DNA of 64,000 bases from Desertivirga arenae (GTDB lineage Bacteria > Bacteroidota > Bacteroidia > Sphingobacteriales > Sphingobacteriaceae). Numbering within the stretch: position 1 is the stretch's first letter; every line of letters starts with the position of its first letter. The notes under the pieces were generated by a model that saw only the letters and a program-made list of their open reading frames with translations, did not search any database and was not told where the DNA came from. Positions 26,265 through 37,839 of this stretch are shown here, piece after piece. Both the position numbers and the translations under genes were made by a program. The stretch lies in contig NZ_JAFEWE010000006.1 of NCBI RefSeq assembly GCF_017355785.1, positions 248,001 through 312,000 of the forward strand, written 5' to 3'.

Positions 26265-27041
26265 ATGCGAACATCTCATGATCTCCGATTAGCTGTCTTA
26301 ATTGATGCCGACAATGTTCCATATGCCAACATCAAGGGTATTATGGAGGAAATAGCAAAATATGGCAATCCAACCACGAAAAGGATTTACGCTGATTGGA
26401 CGAAACCAACGGTATCTGGATGGAAGAACGTTTTGCTGGAAAATGCCATAACCCCTATCCAGCAATACAGCTACTCCACCGGTAAAAACGCTACAGATTC
26501 TGCAATGATCATCGACGCTATGGATATTCTTTATTCCGGAAAGGTTGATGGATTTTGCATCATTTCGAGTGACAGTGATTTTACCCGGCTAGCCACACGT
26601 TTAAGGGAAGCCGGAATGATGGTCATTGGAATAGGCGAGAAAAAAACGCTTAATCCCTTTATTGTTGCCTGTGACAGGTTCATCTATATTGAGATCTTGG
26701 GAAATAATAGTGATAAAGAAAGCGAAGAAGTCAAAACCAACGAGCCCGCAGCTAAAAAGGATACCAAAAGAAAGGTACCCTCCAGGGAACCTAAGTTAAA
26801 TAAGGCGACTATTAAATTAATATCAACCACGATTAATGATGTGGCCGATGAGAGTGGCTGGGCTTATCTTGCAGATGTAGGAAGCTTAATTATGAAAAAG
26901 CAACCCGACTTTGATCCTCGCAATTTTGGGTTCTTTAAACTCACTCCTTTAATTCGCTCCATTCCATCCATTGAGATTGACGAAAGGGAAACAGGAAACA
27001 GAGCTGTCAAACACATCTATATCAGGAATAAGCATAGTTGA
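26265..27041 (+). CDS. NYN (PIN-like) domain protein with C-terminal OST-HTH/LOTUS domain
   Basis: A 258-residue protein of the LabA/MARF1-like type, likely an RNA-binding ribonuclease. The NYN domain covers residues 8-145. The acidic residues of the PIN-like active site are visible in AVLIDADNVPY (D12, D14), in KNATDSAMIIDAMD and in ISSDSDFTRLA. A lysine-rich linker (about 155-180) leads to an OST-HTH domain (about 182-258). It lies 60 bases upstream of the WGR-HEAT gene, has the same orientation as the retron genes, and shares a CTATATTTACC promoter-like element with it. Similar genes also occur singly in many bacteria, so membership in the retron unit is unproven. Confidence 0.85.
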   Translation: MRTSHDLRLAVLIDADNVPYANIKGIMEEIAKYGNPTTKRIYADWTKPTVSGWKNVLLENAITPIQQYSYSTGKNATDSAMIIDAMDILYSGKVDGFCIISSDSDFTRLATRLREAGMMVIGIGEKKTLNPFIVACDRFIYIEILGNNSDKESEEVKTNEPAAKKDTKRKVPSREPKLNKATIKLISTTINDVADESGWAYLADVGSLIMKKQPDFDPRNFGFFKLTPLIRSIPSIEIDERETGNRAVKHIYIRNKHS

Positions 27042-27101: not shown

Positions 27102-30100
27102 TTGAAATTAATTAAGCAAGTCAGTTTATATTACCAGGAGGGTACATCTGATAAAGTATATGAAATAGATCTTCTTCAAACCGGGCAAGATTATGTAGTA
27201 AACTTCAGGTATGGTAAGCGGGGAAGCACTTTAAAAGAAGGCACCAAAACTATTTTTCCGGTTGTCCTGTCAGAGGCAGAGAAAGTTTTTGACAGCCTTG
27301 AGCAGGAGAAAAGAAAGAAGGGCTACGTAGCAGTTGGCGAAGCAATGGGACTTGTATCTGAATCAAGTTCAGATAGTGTCAGAAAACCCTCAAAGAAGGA
27401 AAAGTTAATTCTTAAATACCTGAAAGCTGCGTTGGCTGGAGAGGAACCAGAGAACTGGCGTATTTCAAGGATTATTTGGCGAGCTGCAGAACTAAAGATC
27501 ACAGAAGCTGTACCATCTATACTCAAACTAGCTGACGAGGAGGATGATTTCAACCTCTATTCGGTGGTTTGGGCATTGGGAAGGATGAAGGCAGAAAAAG
27601 GTTTGTCGTTTTTAAAAGAGCTGATCAGTGATCATAGGACTGCTGAACATGTTGCAGAGTTAGCGAAAGATGCTCTACTCGAACTGAGCACAGATAAAGA
27701 CCGCGAAATACTGTTGGAGACGTATATTAAATCGCTTCCAGACAATTTCTATCAGCCCATTGCCAATAACTATTATCAAGAGTTGGAGAAGCAGATAGAG
27801 GAGTTCTTGTTTAATTTGCAAACAACTTCTAATCAGTACATTGTTACCCTTTACAGATTATCACGCTACAATCACAGAGTAAGGAAGATTTTCCTTGAAG
27901 TATTACCAAAAATTCCTTTCAAGCCGAACTACTTTAAACATATACGTAAAGTATTTAAAGCGGCAGAAATGCTGGAAGATTATGAGGTATTTGGAATACT
28001 GGCGAAAGAAATAGAAAGACAAAACCCTTCGTACGGTAGTTTCAGCGCTAAAACTAAGGATTACCTGAGCCGGAGAGTGTTTCGCTCGTTGAGGAGATCA
28101 GGGAACGACCAGTCGGAAAGCTATACTGAACTCGCAACAGGTATCCTTCTTGCCTTTAGTGATGCCGTGGATAATTCTGCTCCATTTGAGAACACCAGGT
28201 ATATAAGTAACTATAACGAACAAACAAGAAGATACAGTTACGACACAGTGGTAAGCCACTACGATTCTTATGCGCGATTCAAGTCTTTCTACTATATATT
28301 ATATGCAAATAGTTCTCGCTATGAGTTGGCTGATATAGCCTGGAAATGCATTCCCCCCTACCTTCCAGGAGCTACGGCTCCGGAACAGCGGGAAGAGGCT
28401 TTTCCTTCTTTATGGAACAGATCTCCTGAGCAGGTCATTAAACTTTTAAAGGAAACTAAAGCTCGTCGTGTACAGGAATTCGCTTTAAAAGTATTCAACG
28501 CAAATTCATCATTTGAATCAGAACTTAGCAAGGAGGATGTAATCGCATTTTTAAATGCATTCTTTAGCGAGACTCAGCAGCTCGGCTTAACACTGGTCAG
28601 GAAGATATTTAATCCACGTGATCCGGACAAGAATTTGCTCTTAGCCGTACTTCAATCACGTTTGAACGAAGCCAGGGAGCAAGGATACCAATGGATTTCG
28701 GCTGACCGGCTTAACCTGCTTTCTGATACTAATTTCGTTGCTGATCTTATTAAGATCAATAACCCTGACACACATCTCTGGCTTCGTGGATTATTAACGG
28801 GTAATGCCTTCCAAAAAGAAGAGGCTGATGTTATTATCGCACGACTAATCTCCTGGCTCGTACAGCGGGCAGACCTGGAAGACCAGACGGAGTACTACGA
28901 TCTGGTAACCGATACGCTGGTTATTGCCTTCCAGGAAAACCTGAAATACATTAGCCTTTCTGTCATTACAGAGCTTCTAAATCATAAGAGTGTAACTCTT
29001 CACGAACTCGCCGGAAAGATCCTTATAAAGCACGAAATAAAACCGGAAGAGCTTCCCGAAGATCTTCTGCTTACACTACTAAGCTCTCAGGAAGAGGGAC
29101 CAAGAACATTGGGCATTCAGTTACTCTCTAAATTCCCCTTAGACATTCTGCTGGAGAAGAAGAATTTACTGGTAAGCTTTTGCCTCTCTCCTCTACAGGA
29201 CGTACGCAATGCTGTTAAACCGCTGATAGCACGGGTAAATGGAGCATATCCTGATTTTGGTAAGGATCTTATCCGACTTTTTGTACCTGCATTTACTTTG
29301 AAGGAGTCTTATGAAGGCTTGCATGAAGATCTGCTGAGTTTATTGACCAGCGAATTGAAGGATAATTTGCAGATACTGGATAAAGATCAGACCCTACAAT
29401 TATTAAACGCGAGGTACCGTACTGCACAAAAACTTGGAGCTTTCGTCCTTTTAAATTACATCGATAAAGAAGGGTTAACCATACCAGAAGTAGTTAAATT
29501 GGCCGACAATCCACTGGAGGAAGTGCGGATGCTTGCCTGGAACTGGTATTCCGAACATCTGCAATTGGTGAAAGCGGATAAGAATGATAGCATTCGTATT
29601 ACCGATTCGGAATGGAAAGACACTAAGGCATTTGCCTTCGACTATTTCAGGAAGCAATGCAATGAAGACGATTGGACAGTTGAAATACTGGTAAGTATTT
29701 GCGATAGTATTCAGGAGGATGTACAAGCCTTTGGCAGGGAAATGATCACCCGCTGTTTCAAAACAGAGCAAGGACAGGAGTACCTTCTTAAGCTAAGTCA
29801 GCACCCCGATACCAAAATTCAGCTCTTCACTACCACTTACCTTGAGGTGTTTGCGAAAGACAATCTGGAAGTTATCAGTTCACTGCAGCTATACTTTCTT
29901 ACCATCTTATCCCAGGTGAATAAAGGAAAAGCAGCAAAAGCCAGGGTACTTGAATTCCTTCGGAAGGAGGCATTGAAATCAGAAGAGGCAGCGCAGTTGA
30001 TCGTTGAAATTTTTAACCGGATTTCTGCTTCGGTAGCAATAACAGAAAAAGCAGCCTGTATTCAGGCATTGAGAGAAATTCAAAAAGCTTATCCGCAGGT

Positions 30101-30149
30101 AGGATCAGCTACAGTTGTAAACCAATACCCTGATTATATAAGGAACTAA
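27102..30149 (+). CDS. WGR-domain HEAT/ARM-repeat protein, probable retron partner
   Basis: A large 1015-residue cytoplasmic protein. The N-terminal 75 residues form a WGR domain (YYQEGTSDKVYEIDL, then FRYGKRGSTLKEGTKT; the signature Trp is replaced by Tyr here). From about residue 95 to the end the sequence is almost all paired helices with HEAT/armadillo character, such as YSVVWALGRMKAEKGLSFLKEL. The start is a TTG at 27102: no in-frame ATG lies upstream and the next one would delete the WGR domain. It ends three bases before the SWIM gene. WGR domains are known from PARP proteins, where they bind nucleic acid. An ARM-repeat plus SWIM pair beside a reverse transcriptase matches, from memory, the type XIII retron layout. 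Confidence 0.82.
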   Translation: MKLIKQVSLYYQEGTSDKVYEIDLLQTGQDYVVNFRYGKRGSTLKEGTKTIFPVVLSEAEKVFDSLEQEKRKKGYVAVGEAMGLVSESSSDSVRKPSKKEKLILKYLKAALAGEEPENWRISRIIWRAAELKITEAVPSILKLADEEDDFNLYSVVWALGRMKAEKGLSFLKELISDHRTAEHVAELAKDALLELSTDKDREILLETYIKSLPDNFYQPIANNYYQELEKQIEEFLFNLQTTSNQYIVTLYRLSRYNHRVRKIFLEVLPKIPFKPNYFKHIRKVFKAAEMLEDYEVFGILAKEIERQNPSYGSFSAKTKDYLSRRVFRSLRRSGNDQSESYTELATGILLAFSDAVDNSAPFENTRYISNYNEQTRRYSYDTVVSHYDSYARFKSFYYILYANSSRYELADIAWKCIPPYLPGATAPEQREEAFPSLWNRSPEQVIKLLKETKARRVQEFALKVFNANSSFESELSKEDVIAFLNAFFSETQQLGLTLVRKIFNPRDPDKNLLLAVLQSRLNEAREQGYQWISADRLNLLSDTNFVADLIKINNPDTHLWLRGLLTGNAFQKEEADVIIARLISWLVQRADLEDQTEYYDLVTDTLVIAFQENLKYISLSVITELLNHKSVTLHELAGKILIKHEIKPEELPEDLLLTLLSSQEEGPRTLGIQLLSKFPLDILLEKKNLLVSFCLSPLQDVRNAVKPLIARVNGAYPDFGKDLIRLFVPAFTLKESYEGLHEDLLSLLTSELKDNLQILDKDQTLQLLNARYRTAQKLGAFVLLNYIDKEGLTIPEVVKLADNPLEEVRMLAWNWYSEHLQLVKADKNDSIRITDSEWKDTKAFAFDYFRKQCNEDDWTVEILVSICDSIQEDVQAFGREMITRCFKTEQGQEYLLKLSQHPDTKIQLFTTTYLEVFAKDNLEVISSLQLYFLTILSQVNKGKAAKARVLEFLRKEALKSEEAAQLIVEIFNRISASVAITEKAACIQALREIQKAYPQVGSATVVNQYPDYIRN

Positions 30150-30152
30150 CAG

Positions 30153-31787
30153 ATGGAGTTTAATTATAAATTTAAGGGAGAGAGCTCCATACAAAGTTCC
30201 GCAGGTAAAGTGGACATGTCCTTTGCCCCCGATCTCCTCCGGGAACCCACCTATTTTTCAGGTTTGTTGAATAGCAAAGTTCCTTTCAGGGAAGCAATTT
30301 CTGTACTTCATGATATCGTGGTATCCGACTTCAGGTTCAAGCCTAAAGATAAAAGCGATTATAAAGAATGGGCCAAACAACAGGAGGATATTTGGCTTGC
30401 AGAGTACCTTGAAGGTAGTGCTGATGTTGAAGCCAAGCTTAAGGTGGTAAGAAAAGAGCTGGAAGACGTAAGGAGGCAGAAAGGTGAAATCATGAGTCCT
30501 TTCTATAAAGCTCAGCGGGAGTATTTCAACTACATTTATAAACATAACCGCGAAGCCTGGATTGTACTGGATCCAGTGATTACTGTTCACCCAGACGAAC
30601 TCTTCTTTGAATGCTTCAGTCAGGATGAATCATCTTACGGTAAACTGGGCTGTAACTATAATGTATTTAAAGACCTGAAAGACTTTAAGTGCGGAACAAC
30701 AAATGTGGATTACTCTGCAGACCTCTATAATGAATTTCAGAAAGTCCGCAACTATAAAGAGACCCATTTCAATATAGATCCCAGTGGTTTTGAAGTTCAT
30801 ACCACGGCAGAAGAATCATATAAAGAGGTAAAAATAGATGTTCCGGAAAGTTGGGTGCGAGGCTTTCTGCAAGTAAGTTCGGCAATGACTTTGCCTGCCC
30901 ATGTCTTTCATCTTCACCCTACCGACCTGTATAATATCTGCTTTATACTTCGCAGAAATAAGGAAAAAGAAGGTCCTCGCTCTATTCGCTTCGTTTTAAA
31001 ACCTGGGAAACCTGTAACCTTGATATTTGAACCCTGGAATCTGGAATTAAAGTGCTCTCGTTCAGTTTATGAAGGAAATTCAGCAACCGAAATCCGCATC
31101 TGGGGCCGAAGAAGATTGCTTTTATTGGAAAGGCTTATTCCACTTGCTAAAGGATTTAAGGTGGTGTTACTGGGATCAGGCCTTCCCTCTTTCTTCGTTG
31201 CCGATTTAGGAGATATGAACTTCACCTTAGGCTTATCAGGTTGGACAGCAAATGACTGGTCGCAGTTAGGTAACTTCGATTTACTTGCCCCAAGAACGCA
31301 GGTAGACAGTTTAACGATGCAAAAAGTATATACTGGATTGAAAGAAACCTGGACTGAGCCTGCTCCTGCTTTAGCTAAGCGACTCGGTTTGGATCAACAT
31401 ATTGTTCTTGGAGCCTTGTCTGCTTTCACGCAGGCAGGAAGAGTCATCTTCGATATCCATAAGGGCACTTACCGCATCCGTGAATTGTCTCGCGAGTCAT
31501 TACCCCTTGATAAACTCCGCTTTGCGAATGAACGAGAAGAGCGGGCTAGAAACCTGATGGAAGCTGGCAATGTAAGGAACGTACACACGGAGGCAAAAGA
31601 CAACTTAAAGCAAATAAAGGCTACCGTTAAAGAAAAAGATAAGGTTTATCAGCCGGTTTTATTAATCGATAAAGATGAGCGATTGGTGAAAGCAAGTTGT
31701 ACCTGTAATTTTTACACCCAGAATAAATTAATGCAGGGTCCATGTGAACATATTCTCGCCGCCAGGATAGCGGAAAACGTGAATTAA
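30153..31787 (+). CDS. Winged-helix and SWIM zinc-finger protein, probable retron partner
   Basis: A 544-residue protein that starts three bases after the WGR gene, so the two are translationally linked. The C-terminus carries a SWIM zinc finger, CxC(12)CxH, with C516, C518, C531 and H533 (SCTCNFY...GPCEH). Before it, at about residues 395-455, the stretch KRLGLDQHIVLGALSAFTQAGRVIFDIHKGTYRI reads as a winged helix. The first 390 residues are of unknown fold with a charged helical region at about 90-120. SWIM fingers bind DNA, RNA or proteins, and the fused winged helix suggests nucleic-acid recognition. Directly downstream lie the retron RNA and reverse transcriptase. The protein is a candidate effector or sensor; no catalytic motif was found. 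Confidence 0.85.
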   Translation: MEFNYKFKGESSIQSSAGKVDMSFAPDLLREPTYFSGLLNSKVPFREAISVLHDIVVSDFRFKPKDKSDYKEWAKQQEDIWLAEYLEGSADVEAKLKVVRKELEDVRRQKGEIMSPFYKAQREYFNYIYKHNREAWIVLDPVITVHPDELFFECFSQDESSYGKLGCNYNVFKDLKDFKCGTTNVDYSADLYNEFQKVRNYKETHFNIDPSGFEVHTTAEESYKEVKIDVPESWVRGFLQVSSAMTLPAHVFHLHPTDLYNICFILRRNKEKEGPRSIRFVLKPGKPVTLIFEPWNLELKCSRSVYEGNSATEIRIWGRRRLLLLERLIPLAKGFKVVLLGSGLPSFFVADLGDMNFTLGLSGWTANDWSQLGNFDLLAPRTQVDSLTMQKVYTGLKETWTEPAPALAKRLGLDQHIVLGALSAFTQAGRVIFDIHKGTYRIRELSRESLPLDKLRFANEREERARNLMEAGNVRNVHTEAKDNLKQIKATVKEKDKVYQPVLLIDKDERLVKASCTCNFYTQNKLMQGPCEHILAARIAENVN

Positions 31788-31799
31788 ACAGAAATTGAG

Positions 31800-31829
31800 T
31801 TTGTAATAATAAAAATAAAATTAGTTTTG
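31800..31829 (+). promoter_or_regulatory. Consensus Bacteroidota promoter of the retron RNA
   Basis: TTTG (31800-31803) and TAGTTTTG (31822-31829) are separated by 18 bases and match the Bacteroidota TTTG / TAnnTTTG promoter exactly. Transcription should begin about 5 bases further on, near 31834, which is precisely the first base of the retron a1 arm. The promoter begins 12 bases after the SWIM stop codon and gives the retron RNA and RT gene their own transcript. Confidence 0.75.
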
Positions 31830-31833
31830 TAAA

Positions 31834-32053
31834 GGTAGTGAGGCAGGCCGAAAGACCTTGCACTCCGGGCGGTGGATCACCGTCCTTGCATACAGCTTAG
31901 TAACGCGCCACCGGCCTGTTCTTAACTGTACGATCCTGGTACCATAGTGATATTTCCGGTGCAAATCCGGAGGATTGAAATATCACTATGGTACCGTCTC
32001 GCTTGAGTTGACCAATCCGGTCCTCAGAATGACGAAGGTGCCTCCTCACTACC
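31834..32053 (+). ncRNA. Retron msr-msd non-coding RNA
   Basis: The 220-base interval just upstream of the reverse transcriptase has all parts of a retron RNA. The arm a1, GGTAGTGAGG at 31834-31843, is the perfect complement of a2, CCTCACTACC, at 32044-32053. The msr part shows a stem-loop GGGCGGTG-GAT-CACCGTCC (31867-31885, one G-T pair) and a second bulged stem (31891-31904 with 31918-31930). The msd part is a long hairpin with a perfect 19-bp stem, 31938-31956 with 31977-31995, and a 20-base loop. A further small stem (32004-32026) lies before a2. No protein frame is needed to explain this region. The branching guanosine and exact msDNA ends cannot be fixed by reading alone. Confidence 0.88.
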
Positions 32054-32067
32054 ATTTTTCCTCCACT

Positions 32068-33573
32068 ATGAGCAATCAACCAAACCGCCAGCAGCTTTAC
32101 GACAGGATAAAAGCATCCACCAGAGACGCAGTGATCCTGGAGGAAATGAAACGTTTTGGCTTCTGGAAAAAAGACGAAGCACAAAGTATTGTCCCGGAAA
32201 CGCTGATCGAGAAAGAAGCAGCTTTAACCAGGGAACTCCGCGATCTCCTGGAGAAACAACAGCGTTTTCAGAACAGGGAACAAGCATTAATAGAGGTCCG
32301 GAGAGCCCGGCTCGAGGCTTCAAAAAAGAAACGTGCGGAAAACAAGCTTTTAAGAAAGCAGCAGAAAGAGCAAAAAGCGGCAAGGTGGAAGGAGAAGAAA
32401 GAAAAGGAGATCATTTACCTCGGGGAAGATGTTTCCCCCGGATTAAATAACGTCTCTGCTAATCCCGATAACCTTAACAAACAAAAGCTTCCGGTTATTG
32501 CCAATGCAGAGGAACTGGCAAAAGCAATGAAAACCACTGTTGCAGAGCTTCGTTTCCTGGCCTATCATCGTACAGTTAGCAAAACTACCCATTACCAGCG
32601 CTTTTATATCCCAAAGAAAACAGGAGGAAAAAGGTTGATCTCTACCCCAATGCCACGTTTAAAGTCGGCTCAGCACTGGGTGTTGGAAAATATCCTCGAG
32701 CTTCCTGAAATAAAAGATACGGCACACGGTTTTGTTAAAAAAAGATCTATTGTCAGCAACGCCGTCCCTCACTTAAAAGCAGAGGTGGTCATCAATGTTG
32801 ATTTGAAAGACTTCTTCCCTTCTATTGATTATAAAAGGGTAAAGGGTTTATTTATATCCTTAGGTTACTCAGAGCAAATTGCTATTATTTTAGGCTTGCT
32901 GTGTACAGAACCAGAAAGCGATCAGATCGAATTGGATGGTCAGAAATATTATGTGGCCGGAACAGAAAGATTCCTCCCTCAGGGAGCACCTACCAGTCCC
33001 GCCATCACCAACCTTATTTGCCGTAAGCTCGATGCACGGTTAATAGGGATTTCAAAAAAGCTGGGATTTACTTACACCCGATACGCAGATGACCTTACCT
33101 TTTCGGCATCGGGGGAAGCTGTTAAAAGTGTGAAAACGCTGATGGGCTTTATCCGCAAAATAGTAAAAGATGAGAACCTCAATATTCATCCAGACAAGCT
33201 CCGCATCCTTAGAAAAGGAAGTCGCAAAGAAGTAACCGGGATTGTGGTGAATGATAAACCTGCGATTAATTCAAAAGAGCTAGATCGGTTCCGCGCCCTG
33301 CTGTTTCAAATTGAGAAAGACGGCATTGCAGGCAAGCACTGGAAGAACAGTCCCCACCTGCTTCCTTCAATAAAGGGTTACGTCAACTTCATTTCGATGG
33401 TGGATCAAGAGAAAGGCAAAGCCTTGAAAGTAAGAGTTGATGCCATCCTGCAAAAACACGGCTATAAGCACGAGATCAGACATAAATCGAAACAACAAAT
33501 AGCTAAAGAGCAGGAAAGAATTGAAGCCGAGGCGGTGCATCAGAAAAAGAAGCCGTGGTGGAAGTTTTGGTAA
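32068..33573 (+). CDS. Retron reverse transcriptase with long N-terminal extension
   Basis: A 501-residue retron-type reverse transcriptase. The retron-specific motifs are present: NAVPH (NAxxH, residues 231-235) and VTG (389-391), together with the catalytic YADD (339-342) and the preceding INVDLKDFFPSI and PQGAPTSPAITN blocks. The first 150 residues or so precede the polymerase fold and are strongly charged and coiled-coil-like (about 45-115, many Lys, Arg and Glu). Such long extensions are known from myxobacterial retron RTs. The ATG at 32068 is chosen because the upstream TTG at 31975 lies inside the msd hairpin and would give a meaningless leader. The start lies 14 bases after a2. The gene is convergent with the DUF4291 gene. 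Confidence 0.93.
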   Translation: MSNQPNRQQLYDRIKASTRDAVILEEMKRFGFWKKDEAQSIVPETLIEKEAALTRELRDLLEKQQRFQNREQALIEVRRARLEASKKKRAENKLLRKQQKEQKAARWKEKKEKEIIYLGEDVSPGLNNVSANPDNLNKQKLPVIANAEELAKAMKTTVAELRFLAYHRTVSKTTHYQRFYIPKKTGGKRLISTPMPRLKSAQHWVLENILELPEIKDTAHGFVKKRSIVSNAVPHLKAEVVINVDLKDFFPSIDYKRVKGLFISLGYSEQIAIILGLLCTEPESDQIELDGQKYYVAGTERFLPQGAPTSPAITNLICRKLDARLIGISKKLGFTYTRYADDLTFSASGEAVKSVKTLMGFIRKIVKDENLNIHPDKLRILRKGSRKEVTGIVVNDKPAINSKELDRFRALLFQIEKDGIAGKHWKNSPHLLPSIKGYVNFISMVDQEKGKALKVRVDAILQKHGYKHEIRHKSKQQIAKEQERIEAEAVHQKKKPWWKFW

Positions 33574-33590: not shown

Positions 33591-34181
33591 TTAAGAATGA
33601 CCTATAAGCTTCTTGATTAAGTGAGGTAAAGGATAAATCTCCTCTATTGGTAATAACTTCTTTGCCTCATCTATCTCCCCCTTCTGTATCAGGGATCGGA
33701 TATTTTTACAATCTTCGGTTATATCTGTAATGCTCTCGGTCCACTCATTCACATACTTGCTTACGGCAATACCTGAAAGTCCAATTTGAATGCTTCTGTA
33801 ATTCAGATTCTCCAAGTACATATCTTTCTCAGGATCCCATTGTATGCGGACGGGTGAGCTGCTTAATATGCTTTTCCAGCTTTCGTAATTTTCATAAATA
33901 GAGCTATTAAAATGAGACAAACAACTATTTTGCAAAGCCCATTCAAAACCTGACCGTTTTATTTTAATAGCTAACACATGCTCCTGCCCCTCTTTACTGC
34001 CCCATCCTGACCGGTACATCATCCATAGAAAGGATGGCTTTATCCAGGTCATTCGTTCAATTTTAAATGGAGATACAATTTTTTGACTTCTAACCGCAGC
34101 TTCTGCAATTTCTTTTCGATAGGCCTGATAAACGGTTATCGTTTGTTCATCATATGCCGCTCTTATTTCTTTTTCTAACAT
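33591..34181 (-). CDS. DUF4291-family protein
   Basis: A 196-residue cytoplasmic protein of the DUF4291 family, recognised from RMTWIKPSFLWMMYRSGWG (about 43-61), the block RIQWDPEKDMYLENLNYRSIQIGL (about 111-134) and the late YVNEWTESITDIT. The role of the family is unknown to me. It is the last gene of the minus-strand NAD operon, 9 bases beyond the NADAR gene, and its end faces the end of the retron RT gene. Repeated association with NADAR or NAD genes would suggest a role in ADP-ribose or nucleotide repair, which is only a guess. Confidence 0.82.
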   Translation of the reverse strand: MLEKEIRAAYDEQTITVYQAYRKEIAEAAVRSQKIVSPFKIERMTWIKPSFLWMMYRSGWGSKEGQEHVLAIKIKRSGFEWALQNSCLSHFNSSIYENYESWKSILSSSPVRIQWDPEKDMYLENLNYRSIQIGLSGIAVSKYVNEWTESITDITEDCKNIRSLIQKGEIDEAKKLLPIEEIYPLPHLIKKLIGHS

Positions 34182-34190
34182 CTTTAGTTC

Positions 34191-34736
34191 TCACATTAAC
34201 ATATCCCGAACTTCCATAAGAGCAAAGCCTAAGAGATTTAAACCTTGCCATGAATTAGGATCATTTACTCTTTCATCATCTGCAGCTAATCCAACTCCCC
34301 AGATAGAATCGAGGGGACTGGCTTCTACAATTACACGATCACCGGTTTTAATAAGAAATTCTTTTAATTCAGGATTCTGAGCAAACTTGTAAAAGTTACC
34401 TTTTAGCACTATTTCGTACCTCTTTTCCTCCCAGAGCTCATTCTCAAAATTTTTCACCTGGCGACCAAGTGCTTTTACAGCCCCTGGGGATTGAGCTTCT
34501 AGGATAGTTTTAAAATTTTCTTTATCGTCGAACAATAAAGCCTTTTGCGCCATCATCCAATGTTCTGCAGTAGGATAAACAAAGCCATTTACCTTAAATG
34601 ACGATTTCCACCACTGACTGAAACAGGAAGCTATTATCTCTCCACTTTTGCTGGGTTGGTGGCCCCAGAAATAAATGTACTTAAAGTTCTCTCCCCTGTT
34701 CAGGCTATCAATAAGCCACGCTGTTGTATATTTCAT
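34191..34736 (-). CDS. NADAR-family protein (YbiA-like)
   Basis: A 181-residue member of the NADAR family (formerly DUF1768). Signature stretches are IYFWGHQPSK, CFSQWWKSSFKVNGFVYPTAEHWMMAQKAL, and the C-terminal IWGVGLAADD...NSWQGLNLLGFALMEVRD. Family members are N-glycosidases that act on riboflavin intermediates or remove ADP-ribose from guanine bases in nucleic acid, so they belong to nucleotide or ADP-ribosylation repair. The ATG at 34736 is chosen since a longer frame would overlap the NAMPT gene by 116 bases; the real overlap is 29 bases and suggests coupling. Its place in an NAD salvage operon supports an ADP-ribose-linked role. Confidence 0.88.
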   Translation of the reverse strand: MKYTTAWLIDSLNRGENFKYIYFWGHQPSKSGEIIASCFSQWWKSSFKVNGFVYPTAEHWMMAQKALLFDDKENFKTILEAQSPGAVKALGRQVKNFENELWEEKRYEIVLKGNFYKFAQNPELKEFLIKTGDRVIVEASPLDSIWGVGLAADDERVNDPNSWQGLNLLGFALMEVRDMLM

Positions 34737-36156
34737 TTTTATAATTCTTTGCCAGCTCACGAATAGCTTCGAAGCTGTGCTCTTTCTTAATTTCACCGTT
34801 CTCAAAAACAGTACGTAGTTCATCTTCCAGTTCAGGGTATTCTTCAGTTTGAACAGTTTGATATGCCCCTTCTAACTTCACCAACTTCAGTTTCCCGCCT
34901 TTACTTTTCTTAAAGCTTTCGCTGATCTGCCCGTTTTCATCCATCTCCACCGGACTTTTCTCAACCCGTACATCCTTACCATTGATGGTGGCATAACTAC
35001 ATTTGATAGCAAACTTCTGCGTATCCCGGTCAACCTTTTGAAGCAGGGCTCCTCCCATTCCCAACACCAGGTTCTCGGCACTGATTCCCTTAGCCTTTAA
35101 GGCTTCGTAAATTTCGATAATACTGTTATAATTTACACCATCTCCCTGGATGACGCGCAATTGCGGAGGCAAAACCCGGTATCCTTTTTCATTAACCATA
35201 TACCCAAACTTGTCAAACAGGATTTCGAAGATCTTCAATAAGGTCATAATCGGATCCCCGCTGTCTGGACGGATAACCAACACTCCTTCACGGTTCAGGA
35301 TCTCTTCGCGAAGCTCTTTGCCCCAGTAATTCTCACAAGCTCTAAAGATATTATAACTATCAGATACACAAGCAACGATACCCGTTGGGAAAGTTTTCAG
35401 AATGTGTCTGAATACCTCCAGTTCCCCTTCCTTTCCTAACAGCGTACAGATACTATGCTCTGTAGCAGGGATGCTTACTCCATGAACCTTCTGCGCACCA
35501 TAGTACTGCTTGGCCAGAACAGAAGCTGCAAGATTATCACTGCCAGCAAAATTTATTAGGTGAGCACAGCCTCCCAGAGCGGCACTTTCTACACTGCTGG
35601 CCCCTCTGAAACCGAAATCGTTTAATACAAAATCTATTCCTGCTTCCGCCCCAGAAGTTGCTGTTTCCGCATAATATTCCGTTACCGCTTTTTTAACCTT
35701 AAAACTTAAAGTTGCAACTGTAGTTGGGTACCAGATCTGCATCAAAACTGTTTCCAGGAAATTCGTTAACCAGAAGCACTCAGGATCAGTATTCTCAATG
35801 GTCATCAACACATTGCCTACAGGTACAACAGCTCCTTCGGCTACGGCCTTAATCTTTACAGGAAGTTTCCCCTGATGCTTGTCGAGGATATACTGGAACT
35901 TGCTCTTATCGAACACATCAGCTCGGTTGAACACTTGCAGAAGAAAATCCTCCGCTTCATTCAGATCTGCCTGAGTAAAGGCTACTCCCTCAATATATTC
36001 TTTCAAAAAGTATTGAAGGCCGAAGAAAACTGTCTCGTCAAACATCCCTCCCCTGCTCTCTAGGTAGCTGTATATTTTACTAGTTCCAGGATAGTATAGT
36101 TTATGGTGAGAATATTTATAAGCGTCAGCGAGTAGGATAAAATTTGGTTTTTTCAT
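34708..36156 (-). CDS. nadV: Nicotinamide phosphoribosyltransferase (NAMPT)
   Basis: A 482-residue enzyme that joins nicotinamide and PRPP to form NMN. It begins with the typical LLADAYKYSHHKLYYPGTSKIYSYLESRGG and contains FGFRGASSVESAALGG, VSIPATEHS, SDSYNIF, IRPDSGDP and IQGDGVN, blocks of the NAMPT phosphoribosyltransferase fold. It follows the NMN adenylyltransferase-Nudix gene by 6 bases, so the two consecutive steps of nicotinamide to NAD+ are encoded together. The 3' end overlaps the NADAR start by 29 bases. The same NAMPT plus adenylyltransferase-Nudix pair is known from phages such as KVP40, but the chromosomal regulator NrtR upstream points to a host salvage operon. Confidence 0.95.
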   Translation of the reverse strand: MKKPNFILLADAYKYSHHKLYYPGTSKIYSYLESRGGMFDETVFFGLQYFLKEYIEGVAFTQADLNEAEDFLLQVFNRADVFDKSKFQYILDKHQGKLPVKIKAVAEGAVVPVGNVLMTIENTDPECFWLTNFLETVLMQIWYPTTVATLSFKVKKAVTEYYAETATSGAEAGIDFVLNDFGFRGASSVESAALGGCAHLINFAGSDNLAASVLAKQYYGAQKVHGVSIPATEHSICTLLGKEGELEVFRHILKTFPTGIVACVSDSYNIFRACENYWGKELREEILNREGVLVIRPDSGDPIMTLLKIFEILFDKFGYMVNEKGYRVLPPQLRVIQGDGVNYNSIIEIYEALKAKGISAENLVLGMGGALLQKVDRDTQKFAIKCSYATINGKDVRVEKSPVEMDENGQISESFKKSKGGKLKLVKLEGAYQTVQTEEYPELEDELRTVFENGEIKKEHSFEAIRELAKNYKNEIYNSVAY

Positions 36157-36162
36157 GATGTA

Positions 36163-37056
36163 TTAGTTTAAGTATTTGGTTAAGATGAAATTAAATAATT
36201 CAAGGTGCTCTTCGTTAACCTGTTCAGTCTCGATCATTTCGGGAATATCGGTCAGTTTAAACCATTGCAGCTCGGCTATATCGTCGCTCGCTATAACCTC
36301 TCCTGAAACATAATCAGTACTGAAAAGCAGGGTTATAATTTTATCCACTTCCGAGCGATATCTCCAGTCGTTGATTTTTGCTGATCCTTCATAAGTCATT
36401 GAGGTTACTTCAAGCTGTCCACACTCTTCCATTAGCTCCCTTTTGGCAGCGCTTTCGTAGTTAGCATCCTCAGGATCTGCAAAGCCTCCTACTAATCTCC
36501 ATCTGTTATGGATTGCCTTTTTTCCGAGCAATAGTTCATTCTTATCATTCCGGAACAAGGCTATATCAACTGTTGGATATACTTTGGTGTATTGGTTGTA
36601 ATAAGCGTACAGGATGCCCGCCCTGAAATCTCTTGAATCGAATACCTTATCAGCATACTGCTTTCTTAATTCAGTTGCATTGTAGTCACCGTGAACAGGT
36701 AATTCAGAAGTATTGAACTTTCCTGAATAATAGGGAATAAAACTATCCCGGCTTCCATACAATAAGAACTGTTCGGTGGGGAAAACGCTTGCAAGAAGCA
36801 TATCCAGGTTTTGAGACCAGCTCTTATCGCTAGGATGATCGCTGATGGGAAGAACTACCACTTCCGGATATTCCTTCTTAATCATCTTTTCGCGGGTGTA
36901 ATAATCAAAGGGATTCCTTCTGCTTCCCGAAATCGGACTGGCACCCAATACAATGATCAATTTATTATGCTTGGTCCTTACATTTTCGATCAGATTTCTG
37001 TGCCCTTCGTGAAGGTAGGGAGTTTGAAATCTCGCTATGATTACTCCTGTTTTCAT
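36163..37056 (-). CDS. nadM: Bifunctional NMN adenylyltransferase / Nudix hydrolase
   Basis: A two-domain enzyme of 297 residues. The N-terminal nucleotidyltransferase (about 1-170) starts MKTGVIIARFQTPYLHEGHRNLIE; the HEGH motif corresponds to the HxGH signature of NMN adenylyltransferases, and the ISGSRRNPFDYYTRE block is the usual substrate loop. The C-terminal Nudix domain (about 180-297) has GGFADPEDANYESAAKRELM followed by EECG, a full Nudix box. The ATG at 37056 places the first domain correctly; the longer frame from 37122 is rejected. Two repeated operator-like boxes precede the start. Product NAD+ or related dinucleotides may be trimmed by the Nudix part. Confidence 0.93.
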   Translation of the reverse strand: MKTGVIIARFQTPYLHEGHRNLIENVRTKHNKLIIVLGASPISGSRRNPFDYYTREKMIKKEYPEVVVLPISDHPSDKSWSQNLDMLLASVFPTEQFLLYGSRDSFIPYYSGKFNTSELPVHGDYNATELRKQYADKVFDSRDFRAGILYAYYNQYTKVYPTVDIALFRNDKNELLLGKKAIHNRWRLVGGFADPEDANYESAAKRELMEECGQLEVTSMTYEGSAKINDWRYRSEVDKIITLLFSTDYVSGEVIASDDIAELQWFKLTDIPEMIETEQVNEEHLELFNFILTKYLN

Positions 37057-37061
37057 TTCTA

Positions 37062-37107
37062 TTTGCGTTATTCTTACACAAATATAAATATGCGTAATTA
37101 ATACACA
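37062..37107 (-). promoter_or_regulatory. Two direct-repeat boxes, candidate NrtR operators
   Basis: Reading the minus strand, TGTGTATTAATTACGCATA (37107-37089) and TGTGTAAGAATAACGCAAA (37080-37062) match at 15 of 19 positions and lie 27 bp apart, directly upstream of the adenylyltransferase-Nudix start codon. The preceding gene encodes an NrtR-type NAD regulator, so these are natural candidate binding sites. The spacing would place both on one face of the DNA only approximately. Confidence 0.6.
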
Positions 37108-37152
37108 AATACAAAAGCACACAAAACAGACAAGAGACTTATTTACAGAAAT

Positions 37153-37839
37153 TTAAATTTCAAAGTTTATACCTGAGCGCTTTAGTTCGAAGTACTTCTC
37201 TTCATTAAAACAGAAAAGATTGCCTGGTCGACCGGCACTTTCGAGTGACTGTTTTTCTGAGGTTTCTTCCAGAAAACCGAATTTGGTGATCTTTTTTTTG
37301 AAGTTCCTGCGGTCTATAGGGCGGCCGAGAACCGCGCTATAAAGTTTCTCGAGCTCAGAAAAGGGAAATCTTTGATCGAGCAGTTCAAAACCGATAGGCT
37401 CATACGACATCTTGGCCTGAAGTCGCTTAAGGGCCCGCTCGATGATCTCCTTATGATCGAAGGCAAGGACAGGCATTTTCTTGATATTGAACCATGCAGC
37501 ATCTGAAGCATCGGTGCTCGCGTGAAGCTGAAATGCGTTTGGTTTAACCAGACCGTAGTAAGCGATAGATACCACTCTATTTCGTGGATCCCGTGCAGGA
37601 TCACCAAAACTATATAGCTGTTCCAGGTAATTAATGCCTACCCCGGTTTCTTCCTGCAACTCTCGTTGAATAGCCTCTTCTAAGGATTCTTCATTTTTCA
37701 CCAGACCACCCGGTAGTGCCCAGGTATCTTTAAAAGGGGCAATATTCCGTTTAATAAGCAATATAGAAAGACCGTCTTTAGAGGTGTATCCAAAAACAAC
37801 AGCATCTACAGCGAGTTTAATTTTCTGATTGACAGCCAT
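37153..37839 (-). CDS. nrtR: NrtR-type Nudix-related transcriptional regulator of NAD metabolism
   Basis: A 228-residue regulator with an N-terminal Nudix-like domain (about 8-140, WALPGGLVKNEESLEEAI then QRELQEETGV) fused to a C-terminal winged helix (about 150-228, FPFSELEKLYSAVLGRPIDRRNFKKKI). This fusion is the hallmark of NrtR, which senses ADP-ribose-type products and represses NAD salvage genes. It is followed at 97 bases by the adenylyltransferase and NAMPT genes, the expected targets. A TAAATTTG -7 match lies upstream at 37892-37885. The Nudix box looks intact, so residual hydrolase activity cannot be excluded. Confidence 0.9.
   Translation of the reverse strand: MAVNQKIKLAVDAVVFGYTSKDGLSILLIKRNIAPFKDTWALPGGLVKNEESLEEAIQRELQEETGVGINYLEQLYSFGDPARDPRNRVVSIAYYGLVKPNAFQLHASTDASDAAWFNIKKMPVLAFDHKEIIERALKRLQAKMSYEPIGFELLDQRFPFSELEKLYSAVLGRPIDRRNFKKKITKFGFLEETSEKQSLESAGRPGNLFCFNEEKYFELKRSGINFEI

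Follow-up and report, generated by a model that had tools for sequence, protein, structure and literature searches.

The locus examined here raises the question of whether a reverse transcriptase (RT) gene and the structured RNA directly ahead of it constitute a complete retron, as the original prediction held for positions 31834–33573 of the window (the whole 64,000-nt stretch of DNA that was analysed), or whether further genes belong to the system. The retron assignment stood; the completeness did not, as the genes for a SWIM protein and a WGR/HEAT protein at 27102–31787 belong to the system and had been missed. With a probability of roughly 0.78, we consider the locus to be a type XIII retron, in which WGR_XIII, SWIM_XIII, a structured RNA and a retron RT lie on one strand (Table 1), with a putative anti-phage role. 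Judged by its sequence, this is a three-gene anti-virus candidate of a known, little-studied class; a known type gains a member, and the addition made here is mainly the RNA.

Reverse transcriptase and type assignment

We compared the three proteins with the PADLOC models, and the top model of each was one of retron type XIII. The RT_XIII model scored the RT at 618.8 bits, compared with 308.5 bits for the next PADLOC model. Type XIII is reportedly contained in the retron classification of Mestre et al. from 2020. Searches with the window's RT yielded 29 further loci, which together with the window make up a set of 30 that is not a random sample; five of its RTs were scanned against PADLOC (window, L002, L003, L007 and L045), and RT_XIII was the best model for all five.

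The locus is a retron on the basis of RT sequence, RT fold and covarying RNA. The open reading frame ending at 33573, with its likely start at ATG 32068 (501 aa), contains NAVPH, YADD and VTG, in agreement with the predicted NAxxH, YADD and VTG motifs; the accessible part of PMC6868368 defines retron RTs by NAxxH (region X), YxDD and VTG (region Y), and all three are present here. Among PDB sequences, the closest solved relatives were retron RTs, with Ec86 first (E 7.3e-46). The AlphaFold2 model of the RT (pLDDT 85.4, 24 sequences) gave the same picture in a Foldseek search, in which ranks 1–18 were all retron RTs with Ec86 on top. The RT was nearer to retron RTs than to DRT2, both by sequence and by fold, and it is present as a single copy in its own genome (E up to 0.001).

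Table 1 Features of the retron locus, in window coordinates.
Feature	Position	Strand	Description
WGR_XIII	27102–30149	+	1015 aa; N-terminal WGR, then HEAT-like repeats; TTG start; PADLOC E 0, 1109.6 bits
SWIM_XIII	30153–31787	+	544 aa; C-terminal SWIM zinc finger; candidate effector; PADLOC 2.5e-235
Promoter-like site	31800–31829	+	TTTG-18-TAGTTTTG; consensus match only
a1 arm	31834–31843	+	Pairs with 32044–32053; 0/100 shuffles as strong
P1 5' side, CCTTGC	31856–31861	+	CTTGC identical in 27/27; G31860 bulged, likely priming guanosine (inferred)
P2 msr stem-loop	31867–31885	+	8 bp, 3-nt loop; 99.5% of cells paired; 5/8 pairs changed on both sides
P3a/P3b 5' sides	31910–31914 / 31918–31921	+	Pair msr with 3' part of msd; covariation, e.g. 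GC/AU/UA
msd hairpin P4	31938–31995	+	19-bp perfect stem; apical small hairpin 31964–31976; helix covaries
Apical motif TTnCnGT	31954–31960	+	Here TTTCCGGT from 31953; partly in 5'-side bulge
P3b/P3a 3' sides	32010–32013 / 32017–32021	+	
P1 3' side, GAAGG	32034–32038	+	ACGAAG identical in 27/27 (letters also locus search key)
a2 arm	32044–32053	+	T run 32055–32059 after
RT_XIII	32068–33573	+	Retron RT, 501 aa; long N-terminal helix; C-terminal PWWKFW tail; PADLOC RT_XIII 1.7e-186
RT C-terminal tail	33520–33573		

We then examined the C-termini of the RTs. Most end, after a variable linker, in an aromatic and often basic tail (PWWKFW, WWNIL/F, FFKK). At least two aromatic residues were present among the last 12 in 25 of 29 complete RTs, a count that includes L045 only by the end of its RT domain, compared with 1/16 SWIM and 3/26 WGR proteins. 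In the Methylobacterium RT (L007), the tail is replaced by a hydrophobic stretch of 19 residues (mean hydropathy 2.70) followed by arginines, a likely transmembrane segment. That these C-termini dock to a membrane or to an effector is a guess.

The statement of the original prediction that retrons with this RT type are anti-phage in established cases found no support for type XIII in the literature searched, where the one paper naming the type reports a PADLOC annotation of a Variovorax strain. The literature searches returned nothing on type XIII SWIM or WGR partners and no phage-defence experiment on type XIII.

Partner genes, gene orders and distribution

The 29 further loci comprise two from genome contigs, one on a Methylobacterium bullatum plasmid record (2.8 Mb) and 26 in genomes of the window's phylum, taken to be Bacteroidota. 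By tblastn, SWIM was found near the RT in 28/30 loci and WGR in 26/30, window included; L002 and L003 had neither by this search, and L010 is cut by a contig end. In the window, the SWIM and WGR genes are adjacent on the same strand. The loci show two gene orders, WGR-SWIM-RNA-RT (the window and others) and RNA-RT-WGR-SWIM, the latter represented by 13 loci that form one clade in the RT tree (support 100/99). These results show that the SWIM and WGR genes travel with the RT. They also bear on the possibility that RT and RNA are a working retron and that SWIM and WGR form a separate, older module merely adjoining it, for which the difference in gene order between clades and the occurrence of SWIM family members without an annotated RT nearby could be cited. 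The association of SWIM (28/30) and WGR (26/30) with the RT in distant bacteria and in two gene orders argues against a mere neighbour, as does PADLOC, which names both as type XIII partners, and we regard this explanation as very unlikely.

In the two partner proteins, Pfam detected nothing beyond HEAT repeats (HEAT_2 in WGR_XIII) and the short domains SWIM and WGR, and neither partner has a known catalytic domain. A single-sequence structure model of SWIM (pLDDT 36.5) contained one stretch of note, a possible winged-helix-like region at residues 386–442, predicted with low confidence. The WGR gene starts with TTG or GTG in 12/13 loci in which it comes first, and with ATG in 13/13 loci in which the RT comes first. 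A poor start codon in the first gene would fit a need for a low effector level; the pattern is confounded by ancestry, as the RT-first loci are one clade, and ancestry alone could produce it.

SWIM_XIII was homologous over its full length to SWIM proteins without an annotated RT (hhalign 99.9%, E 6.8e-34, 435 columns, in a single comparison), from which it differs by some 65 additional residues near positions 72–136; the best match to such a protein by tblastn had E 2e-15. The profiles were built on 11/28 SWIM proteins, 11/26 WGR proteins, 14/30 RTs and 3/8 non-retron SWIM plasmid records. No RT was annotated within 7–9 kb of the related SWIM gene in 5/5 annotated plasmid loci inspected, an absence that rests on annotation, with the PLSDB gene tables incomplete, and none of these five records was among the nine plasmid records with an RT match at E 1e-40. 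A sixth SWIM plasmid record has no annotation at the SWIM site. The existence of the SWIM family without an RT makes SWIM the likelier harmful part, and the full-length homologues without an RT fit a scenario in which a retron acquired a module that already existed. These sequence comparisons suggest that a toxic SWIM module was captured by a retron.

A DUF6493 gene directly follows SWIM in three of the five plasmid loci; of the other two, one has a hypothetical gene after SWIM and one has no such partner. The SWIM-DUF6493 pairs without a nearby annotated RT lie on plasmids at L148 8752–15085, L149 7782–12070 and L150 7770–12009, and the pair is a candidate stand-alone toxin or conflict module. 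Literature searches found no paper naming DUF6493. DUF6493 was not supported as a homologue of WGR_XIII, with no detectable similarity between them; HEAT matches occurred in one of four DUF6493 proteins, at sub-threshold level only. The E. coli Yeh (MoxR/VWA/SWIM) operon was rejected as the parent of SWIM beyond the zinc finger: hhalign aligned YehQ through the SWIM finger only, with a probability of 1.8% (a weak test, YehQ being a single sequence), SWIM_XIII against YehM gave 0.05%, and WGR_XIII gave 0.2% against YehI, the one Yeh protein compared with it from a region that also encodes the WGR proteins YehF and YehH/MolR.

We tallied the distribution of the RT at E up to 1e-60, counting the own genome where it was in the set. 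The RT was found in 8/399 genomes of the window's own family, 2/13 genomes of one other family, 4/395 genomes of the class and 6/395 genomes of the phylum, and in 7/145, 5/199 and 8/146 genomes of three other genera.

Several divergent relatives were observed. In a Gemmataceae MAG (L003, 23–3220), an RT_XIII-like RT (536.7 bits) directly follows the gene for a WGR protein with a PQQ/WD40-like beta-propeller; there is a long inverted repeat between the WGR and RT genes, neither SWIM nor the RNA is present, and the locus is possibly a further type XIII variant. In L045 (3949–9720), a divergent locus of the same phylum, 10 bp separate the RT_XIII and SWIM_XIII genes, which leaves no space for the RNA, and the large protein has only a weak WGR_XIII match (30.6 bits). 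In L056 (8729–10813, minus strand), the WGR gene matches in two frames, with the open reading frame cut to 695 aa, which represents a frameshift or a sequencing error.

The flanks of the system in the window were characterized as well. Just upstream, 26265–27041 (plus strand) encodes an NYN nuclease-like protein with a LOTUS (OST-HTH) domain, of which an 84% identical copy occurs at an unrelated place in one of two same-genus genomes. Directly downstream, 33591–37839 (minus strand) encodes DUF4291, NADAR, a NAMPT-type NAD salvage enzyme, an NMN adenylyltransferase/Nudix protein and an NrtR-like regulator; it is an NAD salvage cluster with a NADAR protein and is also the PADLOC candidate PDC-M42C. 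The NYN-LOTUS, DUF4291 and NADAR genes were rejected as parts of the system, with no match of at least 60 aa in the 29 other loci, several of which have short flanks. Empty-site comparison with a same-genus genome showed NYN as the only gene in common over 36 kb, and a search for NAMPT in two same-genus genomes gave no match.

We also searched phage and viral collections. SWIM_XIII had no relative in 50,697 phage records (E up to 1e-3) and none in a pattern scan of viral contigs; these pattern scans used two short peptides and have limited depth. WGR was searched in viral contigs alone and gave one match, to the WGR domain only. RT relatives in viral contigs were at most 38% identical (best 80 of 278), a single-sequence RT scan of viral contigs gave no match, and of the RT matches in 36 phage records none covered 80% of the query. 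Such results could indicate a working retron whose host function is something other than phage defence: SWIM was not found in the phage records or viral contigs searched, the WGR match in a viral contig is confined to the WGR domain, the viral RT matches either reach no more than 38% identity (among the best 80 of 278) or fall short of 80% query coverage, and the literature searches yielded no defence test of type XIII. Both the patchy presence of the RT (8/399 in the own family and 6/395 in the phylum, own genome counted) and the lack of the window's neighbouring genes at the other loci are typical of defence cassettes, and make a non-defence function improbable.

Structure and conservation of the RNA

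The RNA lies directly upstream of the RT in 27/30 loci, window included. Its core extends from CCTTGC or TCTTGC to ACGAAG, 176–192 nt apart, a sequence key that is descriptive. In the window, the two main pairings proposed by the original prediction were confirmed: the 10-bp arms pair perfectly (GGTAGTGAGG at 31834–31843 with CCTCACTACC at 32044–32053), as do the strands of the 19-bp hairpin (GGTACCATAGTGATATTTC at 31938–31956 with GAAATATCACTATGGTACC at 31977–31995). Folding of the RNA (31832–32055) gave −99.8 kcal/mol, compared with −64.2 ± 4.5 for shuffles (z −7.9, 0/200 as low), and the predicted msDNA stretch as DNA (31926–32034, minus strand) adopted the same hairpin fold (z −6.3).

Other elements were revised. 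The msr was described as having stem-loops; one is clear (P2), and the other conserved msr element pairs instead with the msd side as P3, in which P3b has one mismatch in the window. The msDNA template was said to end at 32043 and probably ends near 32034, because 32035–32038 can pair with 31856–31859. At the RNA start, where a promoter was predicted, a pattern of what we take to be the Bacteroidota promoter type is present, its end lying 4 nt upstream of a1; by itself this match is weak evidence, with TTTG-18-TAGTTTTG matching four times in the window against 2.15 expected. TANNTTTG occurs near the RNA start in 7/27 loci, and the full two-part promoter pattern in the window alone.

We then evaluated covariation in a 42-pair structure among the relatives. 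The covariation score was 0.449, compared with 0.178 ± 0.010 for shuffles; 25 of the 42 pairs had changed on both sides (shuffles 17.1 ± 1.8), and 94.7% of cells were paired (shuffles 79.3 ± 0.7), a percentage biased in favour of the structure, which was partly derived from the same alignment. For each of the three measures, 0/500 shuffles were as high, the shuffles not keeping the relatedness of the rows. The number of further pair types was not above that of shuffles (46 and 50.1, respectively). When the partners were slid by 1–3 columns, the covariation score was 0.07–0.13, and several pair types persisted in P2 and P3 when each of the 8 clusters at 80% identity was represented by a single row. 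The P1 pairs (31856–31861 with 32034–32038) hardly vary, and covariation speaks neither for nor against them. These results show a conserved RNA whose structure covaries and which is tied to this RT.

Covariation had been proposed as a check on the a1/a2 arms and the msd stem. The msd stem and other helices covaried strongly; pairing of the arms was strong in one gene order only. In 14/14 loci of the window's order the arms were strong, with 0/100 shuffles as good in 13 loci and 1/100 in L051; in the 13 RT-first loci they were weak, with 1–5/100 shuffles as strong in five and 9–37/100 in eight. The two gene orders also differed beyond a2: a run of at least five T residues lies close after a2 in 13/14 loci of the window's order, and a terminator-like hairpin between a2 and the RT was found in 13/13 RT-first and 0/14 SWIM-first loci, by a pattern that was written post hoc and is descriptive. 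Together, the hairpins and T runs suggest termination of the RNA ahead of the RT gene, or restricted read-through.

The length of the hairpin segment is more constant than its letters. From P3b to P3b' it measures 87–91 nt in 27/27 loci while its sequence turns over; in the motif TTnCnGT, five of seven positions are identical in 27/27, compared with an average majority of 0.74 for the columns of the lower stem.

We searched for the RNA beyond these loci. It is a single copy in its own genome. In L003, L045 and L002, the last of which is truncated by the start of its contig, an unfiltered model search gave at best 10.6 bits (E 0.19), compared with 122–189 bits for the listed members, and none of the three genomes had a model match at E up to 1. 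For L003 and L045, no Rfam family reached its gathering score. Among 277 genomes of the phylum, the model with strict filters gave two matches, both at RT loci and both among its 27 building RNAs, which shows only that there are no strong stray copies. In the window, Rfam gave nothing at gathering score, and on the RNA region alone it gave chance matches only, such as mir-36.

The candidate priming G is invariant in 27/27 loci, at the expected place, in the context UUGC. This RNA might serve a different product, in that the RT would make something other than msDNA (compare DRT2, which makes a repeated gene from its RNA) or would work without a copy. P3, which links msr and msd, could be read in this way, and we know of no such link in described retrons. 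UUGC, rather than the AGC given in the accessible part of PMC6868368, at the presumed priming site points in the same direction. Weighing more heavily, the RT carries NAxxH and VTG and has retron RTs, above DRT2, as its nearest relatives by sequence and fold, and P1 and the arms show the retron layout; a non-msDNA product is accordingly a long shot.

Proposed mechanism and relation to known systems

Taking the locus as a retron of type XIII, we infer msDNA production, the priming G and phage defence by analogy with studied systems. According to the accessible part of PMC6868368, a G terminating the a1 stem provides the 2'-OH from which the RTs of studied retrons prime. By this analogy, the RT would start DNA synthesis at the 2'-OH of the invariant bulged G31860. 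Reverse transcription would begin at about 32033–32034 and, passing P3 and then the long hairpin, run leftwards as far as about 31926–31910; the predicted product is an msDNA hairpin bearing the complement of the TTnCnGT motif at its tip. The complex of RT, RNA and msDNA would hold the SWIM and WGR/HEAT pair inactive; phage damage to the complex, or binding of it, would free the pair, and the infected cell would be stopped or killed.

A more specific proposal is tentative, and we consider it doubtful as a whole. According to it, a captured SWIM toxin module is kept in check by the retron, and the msDNA is read by its shape, with fixed length, free sequence and a fixed tip motif bound by SWIM or WGR. 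The RT would be tethered to the membrane or the effector by its C-terminal tail, or by the likely transmembrane segment in Methylobacterium, so that the poison would be released at a defined place. To our knowledge, SWIM toxin chemistry and shape-sensing, if true, would both be new for retrons.

Retron types differ mainly by their effectors, and the partners of type XIII have no recognizable enzyme. The RNA model with covariation, the predicted msDNA, the two gene orders and the RT-less SWIM module make the type directly testable as to the toxic component, the component that holds it back and the signal sensed by the hairpin. In addition, the RNA may offer a new template scaffold for DNA making in Bacteroidota.

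We finally compared the system with its nearest known counterparts. It shares with the SWIM-DUF6493 pair of Diaphorobacter, Asticcacaulis and Streptomyces plasmids a SWIM protein homologous over its full length and a large second protein adjoining it; the pair has no RT annotated nearby, unlike this system. Ec86 (Retron-Eco1) is the closest solved RT by sequence and by fold, and presumably differs from the present system in its effector genes, in an N-terminal extension of about 130 aa in the RT described here and in the msr-msd helix P3 found here. In common with Ec86, following the layout in the accessible part of PMC6868368, the RNA has the a1/a2 arms, an msr stem-loop, an msd hairpin and a G ending the a1 stem; this presumed priming G stands in UUGC and not in the AGC-like contexts which that part of the source gives for validated retrons and Ec86. 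No excluding difference was found from retron type XIII, whose models are matched by all three proteins across nearly their whole length.
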